Assembly (NCBI GenBank): GCA_019634385.1
Contig: JAHQVK010000170.1
Span: 1-64,000, forward strand
Length of the DNA: 64,000 bases
Reading direction: 5' to 3'
Source of the DNA: Myxococcales bacterium
GTDB lineage: Bacteria > Myxococcota > Kuafuiibacteriia > Kuafuiibacteriales > Kuafuiibacteriaceae
The notes under the pieces were generated by a model that saw only the letters and a list, made by a program, of their open reading frames with translations, did not search any database and was not told where the DNA came from. Positions 14,043-52,496 of this stretch are shown piece after piece (positions within the stretch are counted from its first letter, which is position 1; every line of letters begins with the position of its first letter). The translations under genes were made by a program, and so were the position numbers.

Positions 14043-15713
14043 TTGAGGTATAATATGTCGCGTAAACGGAAGAAATTCATCTTTGTTACCGGTGGAGTTG
14101 TGTCTTCGCTAGGCAAAGGCTTATGCAGTGCATCTATTGGAGCTCTCATGGAAGCTCGGGGCCTACGTATCTCCATGCTAAAGCTAGATCCATATATTAA
14201 TGTGGATCCGGGTACAATGAGCCCCTTTCAGCATGGCGAGGTATTCGTAACTGATGATGGTGCCGAAACAGATCTCGATCTGGGACATTATGAGCGTTTT
14301 ACTAATGTTGAACTGAGCCAAGCTAACAACTTTACTACTGGTCAGATTTACCATCGAGTTATAACTAAAGAACGACGTGGTGAGTATCTAGGCAAGACGG
14401 TCCAGGTAATTCCTCACATTACTGATGAGATAAAGAGTTCAATTTGGCAGATAGCAGAAGAGGCGGATCTTACTCTCGTAGAGATAGGTGGCACCGTAGG
14501 TGATATTGAATCTCTTCCTTTTCTAGAAGCTATTAGGCAGATGCGTAGAGATGCGGGGCCGGAAAATGTTCTTTATCTCCACATTACTTTGGTGCCGTAT
14601 CTCAAGTCGGCTGGAGAGGTAAAGACCAAGCCTACGCAACACTCCGTTGGAGAGCTCCGCCGGATTGGTATTCACCCGGATGTCCTAATCTGCCGGAGCG
14701 AGAATGAGGTGGAGCTTGAGATTAGGAGAAAGATATCTTTGTTTTGTGATGTTGCCCTAGAGTCGGTTGTGAGCGCACCTGATGTGTCATGTATCTACGA
14801 CTTACCGCTTCATCTCGCCCAACAGGGAGTAGATGAGCGAATCGCAGAGCTTTTAAATATCTGGAGTCGTCGAGCTGGTCTTGAGCAATGGGAGCATGTT
14901 GTTCAGCGTATTACTTTGCCTAGCTATGAGGTGACTATAGGAATAGTTGGTAAATATACTCAACTGATAGAGAGTTATAAGTCGCTTCATGAAGCACTTA
15001 TTCATGGTGGAATACCAAATGACGCTACGGTAAATTTACGATACCTTGAATCGACAGATCTTGCTATGCCGCAAGAGGCGCTGAAGGGTATTGATGGTAT
15101 TCTTGTGCCAGGCGGATTCGGTGAGCGAGGGACAGAAGGAATGATAAGGGCGGTTCGTTATGCCCGGGAAAATAACATTCCTTTTTTTGGCATATGTTTA
15201 GGGCTTCAGATTGCTGTTGTTGAATACGCTCGGCATGTATGCGGGTTAGCCAGTGCTAACTCCATCGAGTTTGATGTGGCCACTCAACATCCGGTGATCC
15301 ACTTGATGGCGGAGCAAGAGAACGTACTCAATGTAGGAGCTACGATGCGTTTAGGAGCATTTCCCTGTCGATTGGAGAACGGATCGCTCGCAGCTCGGAC
15401 CTACGGAAAAACGGAAATTAGTGAGCGTCACCGTCACCGCTATGAGGTCAATAACCGGTATCGAACAGAGTTGGAGTCCCATGGACTCAAGTGTTCGGGT
15501 GTATCTCCGGATGGAAATCTTTGTGAGATCGTAGAGCTACCTTCTCATCGTTGGTTCTTGGGCTGTCAGTTTCATCCAGAGTTCAAGAGTAAACCATTTA
15601 AACCTCACGCCCTATTCGCGGGTTTCATTGGGGCTGCGCTCAGTCACCGCCGAGATATGGAAGACACACAGTCAGAACCTCATCAAAGTTCAGCAGTAAC
15701 AAGTCTTGGCTAG
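14043..15713 (+). CDS. pyrG: CTP synthase
   Basis: [17 protein letters not shown], amidotransferase FGICLGLQ; likely start ATG 14055; stop TAG lies in family B terminus. Confidence 0.97.
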
Positions 15714-15916
15714 GGTGTCTTTAACCTCCGGCTGGGGAGATGACGCCGTACCTCGCGTGTGTGAAGGGTCGGCTGCGGAGGGAGGGTACTGGATGTTCCG
15801 GACTGAAGGGCCCGAAAGGGTGGCGATGCCACCAACGTCTCACACCAAACCCACGAATATCCTGAGTTCGTTATGGATACACCATCCAAGGTGGTTTTCG
15901 GATTTGTGACTCCTAA
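15710..15916. repeat. Family B element, decayed right end
   Basis: ctagggtgtctttaacctccgg...gacgccgtacctcgcgtgtgtgaaggg...gggcccgaaagggtggcgatgccacca matches 62956-63145; right terminus degenerate. Confidence 0.75.
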
Positions 15917-15999
15917 CGCCTGCCGATTTAGTAGGTAGTTCATATACGGATATTTACTCTATTTGTATGTAAACATAAGTCTCGAAAACTTAGACCAGG

Positions 16000-16075
16000 T
16001 ACCGCAAAGACCCCTTGAATTGATTCTGTAAGAAGAAGCAGCAACTTGGGTTCAACCCAAGTGATTTCTGCTGTA
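16000..16075. repeat. Family C palindromic repeat, copy 1
   Basis: taccgcaaagaccccttgaattgattctgtaagaa...acttgggttcaacccaagtgatttctgctgta; near-identical segments at 36579-36691. Confidence 0.7.
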
Positions 16076-16310
16076 CGAGCCCAGGATGCAAATATACTAC
16101 ATGGCTTAGCTCGCCTCACTATCCGAGCCGACCGTTGTAGTGAATATGAGCACGTGTTGGGGGCGTTGGGGGATCCTTGCGCGGGGACCTTGATTTGGTG
16201 GCCTTCCGGGCCTTTCTGAACGCGGTGTGGCTTTTGGGTGATGCGGTATCGGCGTTCAAAGCCATCTAGTCGTTTGCTGACTGAGGCGCCTCTGCTATCT
16301 CTCTCTAACA

Positions 16311-51020: not shown

Positions 51021-51059
51021 CTTCGAGAACCAATGGGCATGGAGACGGTGGGAGGGGTG

Positions 51060-52253
51060 TCATTCCGGAGCTAGACCCGCCCAGTCTCTCCAAGCTTGGG
51101 CGATCTCTGCTTGGGCATTGGCTCGAGTGGGATTGCCAAAACTTTGCCCGGTGATGTGCTCAAGAATGGCGATGACTCGTTGTCCTAAAGTGTTGGAAAT
51201 GATTCTTCGCTGACCCACACGGGTGTTTCGAATGGCTAGGGCATCGGTACTGGCCGCGTATTCCGCGAGTAGGGGAGCGATCATCTGTCCTTCACCGACA
51301 AGTTTCTCCACCGCTCGGACGACCAAGTGACCATCGTTGTCTTTAAGATTTTCTACTGCGGCTTGCACAGTCGCGATGAGTACATCGGAGAGAGTAGAAC
51401 GGCGGACCCGGTTTCCAGACTTCTTGTGTTGACGAAGGTCACTAAGAACATTCGGCTTTCGGCCGACTCTGATCGCGATGACCAGCGAGTTGCGGGTCAT
51501 AACCCGAATCTCCCGAGGTTGGATACCTACGAGGACCGCGCCGCGGGGTAGAAGATCGCCGATCGCATAGGAGCGTACTTCTCCACTTAATTGGTCCTCG
51601 ATCAGTGCTCGTCGGTTTTCCCAGGCCATACGTGATTTGCGGGTGCGTTGAAGCCTCAGCTGCAGGTTGGCAGGAGGAGCATCGACAGCGAAGTCTTTCT
51701 GGATCTCAGGTGGTACGGCTGGGCGACCTGGTTGAGCAAGAACTGGCTTGGGAGTCACAGGCACTGCGACCGGAGGCTTGCCGAGGCTGACCGATGCGAG
51801 GGTGTTTCTAGATTTGTTTGGTGCGGTCTTGATTGTTGTTCTCGTCTGGGCTGGCGCAGGGCGGTTAGCAGTTGGCTTCTGCCTTACTAGAGAAATGTTT
51901 GCGACTTTGGATGGAGTGCCTGACCTCCTTGCTGTGGATACTGATGGGTTGTTGGGCTCCGAGATAAATTTGGGCTCCGAGATTAGCGGCTGGGGATCTG
52001 TGGTACAATCAGCGCCGAGGGGCCTCGGACTCACATTGCTCGGTGAGGTTTCGGCGGTGGCCGTCAGATGGATGGTGATACGTTGAGGTTCCCGACTACA
52101 TTGCGCATTGAGTAAAACGACAAACCCCATCAAGGCGAACCAACGATTCATGATTTCTTGTCCTTGGGTACGTGCACCTCGCCGGTGGCAGGCGCATAGA
52201 CCACGTGAGTATCCTCGACGGTAATGCACGGAGAGACCAGCACTGATCCTCAT
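51060..52253 (-). CDS. hypothetical secreted/lipoprotein
   Basis: Internal FALMGFVVLLNAQCS lipoprotein-like signal; Pro-rich middle; real start probably internal (MNRWFALMG). Confidence 0.6.
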   Translation of the reverse strand: MRISAGLSVHYRRGYSRGLCACHRRGARTQGQEIMNRWFALMGFVVLLNAQCSREPQRITIHLTATAETSPSNVSPRPLGADCTTDPQPLISEPKFISEPNNPSVSTARRSGTPSKVANISLVRQKPTANRPAPAQTRTTIKTAPNKSRNTLASVSLGKPPVAVPVTPKPVLAQPGRPAVPPEIQKDFAVDAPPANLQLRLQRTRKSRMAWENRRALIEDQLSGEVRSYAIGDLLPRGAVLVGIQPREIRVMTRNSLVIAIRVGRKPNVLSDLRQHKKSGNRVRRSTLSDVLIATVQAAVENLKDNDGHLVVRAVEKLVGEGQMIAPLLAEYAASTDALAIRNTRVGQRRIISNTLGQRVIAILEHITGQSFGNPTRANAQAEIAQAWRDWAGLAPE

Positions 52254-52436
52254 TGCTACGCAAAAGGTGCTGCTCTACGGTCTAGTGGCAGGGGAATGTG
52301 CCTGAAGAATGGGGATCACGCGGCGCTAGAGCGTGTTTTTAAGGTTGGCTGTGGTCTTTTTGCCCGCCCCCCACTTCAAAGGCCTACGTCGTCCTCTCGG
52401 TGCGTGGGCCTCTCGAGTAGTCACAGATTCAGTACA

Positions 52437-52496
52437 TTAGGGTGTGTGTCTTTAACCTCCGGACCGCGTTCTGACGCGGGATACGGCATGCTCTAG
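52437..52496. repeat. Family B element, internally deleted (60 bp)
   Basis: ttagggtgtgtgtctttaacctccggaccgcgttctgacgcgggatacggcatgctctag. Confidence 0.7.

Follow-up and report, generated by a model that had tools for sequence, protein, structure and literature searches.

In the genome analyzed, small palindromic, MITE-like elements that target the sequence YTAR very probably (we put the probability at about 0.85) land on TAA and TAG stop codons in proportion to the availability of such sites, and the stops are preserved. The window, i.e. the whole stretch of 64,000 nucleotides under study (C144:1-64000), belongs to a 5.39-Mb draft genome of 257 contigs. Profiles of three element families, A, B and C, were built from a 1.89-Mb sample of this genome (60 merged stretches, 35% of the total, picked partly from contigs known to bear elements). 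Genes were called with our own dicodon model and not taken from annotation (1162 genes in the sample at the default threshold). Element ends were searched for throughout the genome with A-type and B-type patterns (up to 3 mismatches), with reversed patterns as the control. The following features were distinguished in the window:

91..263 (+): family A element, full length (173 bp), flanked by TTAA and TTAG
292..462 (-): family C element, full length (171 bp), CTAG on both sides
444..3131 (-): clpA-like gene, stopping inside the C element at 292..462
6687..6819 (-): family A copy with an internal deletion; CTAG 6820-6823 is common to it and the next B copy
6823..7007 (-): family B element that begins with the G of the CTAG shared with the A copy
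14043..15713 (+): pyrG (CTP synthase), stop in the CTAG that borders a B copy on the left
15710..15845 (+): family B copy lacking 2 bp of the left TIR and 46 profile positions on the right
27169..27348 (-): family B element, full length
31848..31921 (-): family B, partial copy
31928..32081 (-): family A, degenerate, abutting the partial B copy at 31848..31921
44106..44147 (-): family B end fragment
47729..47749 (-): family A right-end remnant of 17 bases (GCTAGATCAACCGGCTG) plus CTAG
47746..49032 (-): Ser/Thr protein kinase gene, stop in CTAG 47746-47749
52439..52489 (+): family B remnant that retains the left TIR but has lost 133 of 180 profile positions toward gpsA
52493..53503 (-): full-length gpsA gene (glycerol-3-phosphate dehydrogenase) with its stop in CTAG 52493-52496
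60416..60531 (+): family B, partial; the stop of a minus-strand gene lies 11 bases beyond it and outside the terminal CTAG
62960..63139 (+): family B element, full length, CTAG on both sides

A preliminary description of this DNA had placed the TAG stops of pyrG, the kinase gene and gpsA in the terminal CTAG of such repeats. The three stops were found where it had located them, at 15711-15713 on the plus strand for pyrG and, read as CTA, at 47746-47748 and 52493-52495 for the kinase gene and gpsA of the minus strand. The first two lie beside real but damaged copies: the B copy at pyrG has lost two bases from its left end and, at the right, 46 of the 180 profile positions, and the kinase stop adjoins the 17-base family A remnant. 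No TIR could be aligned at the gpsA CTAG, which lies next to a B remnant (profile match 52445-52489) on its broken side. The surviving TIR of this remnant is at its far left, away from gpsA, so the gpsA stop is not an example of a stop at a family B end. The clpA-like gene had likewise been described as ending within an element. Its stop (TCA at 444-446 on the plus strand) does fall inside the C element, but outside the terminal CTAG.

Palindromic repeat families A, B and C

The profiles describe palindromic families of 173 bp (A), about 180 bp (B) and 171 bp (C). Profile search of the 1.89-Mb sample detected 436 copies or fragments (146 of A, 222 of B and 68 of C), i.e. about 230 per Mb, which make up 3.2% of the sampled DNA. 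The genome as a whole contains 678 A-type and 496 B-type ends, compared with none in the reversed-pattern control, which upholds the earlier supposition that these sequences are repeated elsewhere in the genome. Each consensus folds into one long hairpin, with 82-87% of bases paired. In their length (171-180 bp), near-complete palindromy, lack of a transposase gene, target-site duplication and many dispersed copies, the three families agree with MITEs. We classify them as MITE-like non-autonomous transposable elements, whose mobility itself we infer. An assignment to the REP/REPIN sequences (RAYT-associated, GTAG-headed short palindromes; Y1 transposase) is less likely, as the CTAG/YTAR duplications speak against it.

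Neither A nor B had a match in any of the 57 relatives searched, and the core of C alone was present in one of them (G001). In this same-family genome, a palindrome (L260, 1440-1619) carries the family C core with different ends (CTAGCAGGCTGCTGAAGAACTC), and comparison of the two sequences suggests an exchange of cores and ends between families. The nearest genomes belong to the same family only, none of them to the same genus (PyrG identity 70-73%), and hence pre-insertion stops were deduced from protein ends and not read directly. An Rfam search of the window yielded two tRNAs and nothing else. A further repeat family, in which GTACMGCAAAGACCMCTTGAATTGATTCTGTAAGAA precedes a hairpin containing CTTGGGTTCAAYCCAAG, occurs at 15999-16075 and 36578-36691 of the window, as well as at about 710-755 of L258.

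Target sites and candidate mobilizing transposases

Within the sample, all three families insert at YTAR and strongly prefer CTAG. Family A has a YTAR flank at 197 of 228 ends. Among its 82 two-ended copies, 33 are bounded by CTAG on both sides and 16 by matching non-CTAG 4-mers (TTAA in five, CTAA in five, TTAG in three, TAAG in two and TTGA in one); a few A copies have mismatched 4-mers at their two ends. The target duplication of this family comprises 4 bp, non-palindromic cases included. Family B shows (C/T)TAG at its left edge and CTA(G/A) at its right edge, a pattern of YTA-G...C-TAR from which it follows that the adjoining G and C are the element's own ends and that TA alone is duplicated. 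Family C is almost confined to CTAG, which flanks 45 of its 51 two-ended copies on both sides and which it appears to duplicate. C elements nested in A have CTAG on both sides, with TTAG on one side in one nested case. An empty/filled pair exists within the genome itself: uninterrupted A copies keep a single CTAG where others hold CTAG-C element-CTAG. These duplications support YTAR/CTAG, the target suggested in the preliminary description.

In seven of nine nested cases, C occupies an identical internal point of A (GAGAGACTT-CTAG-TGGTCAGGA); examples of such A-C-A loci are G000:C116:16787-17123 and C97:32066-32413. The composite may, judging by this arrangement, be a unit that multiplied after a single insertion. 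Abutting elements (A-B, B-A, C-B and B-C) often share one CTAG, at dozens of junctions in the sample and, in the window, at 6683-7009 and 31845-32081. Such pairs are to be expected if terminal CTAGs act as fresh targets.

A resident element of 880 bp (L288) encodes a DDE_Tnp_1 transposase (PF01609 match), is flanked by CTA..TAG and terminates in GGGTCTGCCTTCAAAG and GGGCCTGTCTTCAAAG. The common B variant GGGCGTGTCTTCAAAC agrees with these ends at 12 of 16 and 14 of 16 positions, respectively. The ORFs of the resident element (one of 128 aa and a separate one of 69 aa on the minus strand) are consistent with a frameshift, such as joins the two overlapping ORFs of the IS427 group, or with decay. 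Members of the IS427 group (IS5 family) are 832-865 bp long and mostly have 2-bp repeats (PMC3281130), and the 880-bp element fits this group by its DDE_Tnp_1 domain, length and TA duplication. Family B was probably mobilized by an IS5-family (IS427-like) transposase, for which this element is the best candidate. An apparently intact IS630-type element (L255, 1356-2525), encoding a 359-aa DDE_3 transposase, also sits in CTA..TAG; it was rejected as the mobilizer of B, since its ends, GTGTAGTGCGAMCGAC (GTGTAGTGCGA...), are unlike those of A, B and C. A search of DDE_5, DDE_3, DDE_Tnp_1 and DUF772 loci found none with A or C ends. IS701 (DDE_5), of which a single decayed fragment was found, was discarded as a partner of A.

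YTAR/CTAG targets and CTAG-supplied stops are already known, the latter from TnRErm46, and the present analysis contributes scale and a null test. TnRErm46/ISRe46 of Rhodococcus equi targets CTAG, which supplies the TAG stop of the target gene, and the genes stay functional. In contrast to the small palindromes described here, the available part of that report (PMC6794481) concerns a large resistance transposon with few insertions and gives no genome-wide statistics. MITEPsy1 of Pseudomonas syringae (about 100 nt, with 18-nt TIRs) inserts after CTAG/YTAA with a 4-nt duplication and is thought to derive from ISPsy2 (PMC3189936). It resembles family A in target and duplication, but differs in its TIR and host, and a parent has been proposed for it, whereas none was found for A. 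IS711 of Brucella duplicates TA within YTAR, and the palindromic Bru-RS repeats serve as insertion sites (PMC2266754). In its TA duplication and its occurrence with palindromic repeats it is similar to family B, but it is a full IS from another phylum, likened to B by its target. IS5 of E. coli, whose target-site duplication motif is YTAR (PMC10359306), shares this duplication with family A; it is again a full IS, likened to A by its target motif. The IS630 family, according to Tenzen and Ohtsubo (1991) as cited in PMC2170065, favors the TA of 5'-CTAG-3' and has a TA duplication, as does B, but the resident IS630 differs in its ends, as described above.

Stop codons at element ends

At profile-defined element ends in the 1.89-Mb sample, the stops of 30 called genes (threshold 12) fell exactly in the terminal 4-mer, compared with no more than five at any of the other positions between 60 bases outside the element and 160 bases inside it; eight genes stop inside an element. 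TAR comprises TAA and TAG and YTAR is self-complementary, so any TAA or TAG stop that follows C or T is automatically a target. The spike at the stop offset is therefore a property of the target and needs no extra cause. The proper null is provided by other YTAR sites downstream of genes.

Occupancy was tested directionally for each element end, with stratification by family and 4-mer (Mantel-Haenszel odds ratio, OR), against other non-coding YTAR sites located up to 400 bp downstream of genes. Twenty-eight stop-coincident genes passed the YTAR filter, and these 28 occupied stop sites compare with 26.3 expected (OR 1.08, p = 0.79). Over four gene-calling stringencies the OR was 1.06, 1.08, 1.25 and 1.35, with p of at least 0.30 in all cases. 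Fisher tests against sites 1-199 bp downstream gave an OR of 1.03 (p = 0.90) for the CTAG null and 1.13 (p = 0.57) for the YTAR null. A first null, in which 28 of 373 insertions (7.5%) were at stops vs 4.9-6.5% of null non-coding YTAR sites, was not decisive, because many insertions show only one detectable end; the stratified per-end test was used instead. The occupancy of stops is what site availability predicts. A systematic targeting or over-representation of stops, as proposed in the preliminary description, is not supported: stop overlap in the sample is no higher than chance, an outcome which that description had itself named as refuting.

It is unlikely that the elements seek gene 3' ends or stops, or are selectively kept there, for instance by virtue of hairpins that would serve as transcription terminators or be cut by RNase III. 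Such a preference would accommodate the sharp spike and the strong hairpins, together with a non-significant lean of family A to stops, which may be real (15 at stops and 66 elsewhere; OR 1.5-1.6, p = 0.12-0.29), and an excess of B ends 1-29 bp after stops (19, above expectation). It is opposed by the equal occupancy of stops and other downstream YTAR sites, and by the fact that the spike explains itself. We consider it slightly less probable still that A, and perhaps B, are preferentially retained at or just after stops, where the hairpin would serve as a 3'-end terminator or processing site. If true, this would describe an element that lands on and takes over gene ends genome-wide.

The proposal that genes tolerate insertion exactly at the stop is supported by the integrity of the affected proteins. 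BamA ends in FEFSIGNSF, followed by TAA within the CTAA at an A end; its Omp85 domain is complete to the final residue, and it aligns with a solved BamA chain through the terminal residue of that chain, which is likewise Phe. RecR has a complete RecR_C domain, two residues before the stop, and nothing is missing from AroQ, a carboxylesterase or an SDR enzyme. The domains of PyrG and GpsA encoded in the window are complete as well, and GpsA is of full length. PyrG extends further at its tail than the protein of a same-family relative, and this tail is not conserved, which makes the original position of the pyrG stop uncertain. Where this can be judged, stop-coincident genes are intact.

These proteins also bear on a very improbable alternative, according to which insertions into coding sequences create new stops at the element edge, so that the genes are truncated and the stops are made by the element. 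In family B the element itself supplies the G at the third stop position, and the clpA-like gene and eight sample genes do stop inside an element; however, a YTAR in the TAR frame was a stop before insertion, and BamA, RecR, AroQ, GpsA and others are full length. An unrelated coincidence with CTAG, the repeats not being mobile elements, would suit the commonness of CTAG in the window (174 vs a Markov expectation of 177) and the position of gpsA away from an element end, but can practically be dismissed in view of hundreds of copies with identical termini (0 in reversed-pattern controls), target duplications that are in part non-palindromic, and nested insertions.

Proposed course of insertion and its significance

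We favor insertion at YTAR in proportion to site availability. A, B and C insert at YTAR, most readily at CTAG, with duplication of 4 bp by A, of TA by B and apparently of CTAG by C. A TAA or TAG stop after C or T is a ready-made target, and the stop is preserved upon insertion. Since B duplicates TA alone, its first base, G, becomes the third base of any stop that is hit, and a TAA stop hit by B should turn into TAG. Insertions in coding sequences would mostly be purged by selection, so that the survivors would be found in intergenic YTAR sites and at stops, in proportion to the numbers of each. Family B was probably moved by an IS5-family transposase, and a resident element whose ends are similar would be what is left of it.

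Overlap with stop codons should be taken for targeting only where the null is built on the target itself. As the target is a stop in one frame on either strand, TAA and TAG stops after C or T are safe landing sites. The elements described here are a clean genome-scale example of why YTAR-targeting elements can multiply with little damage.
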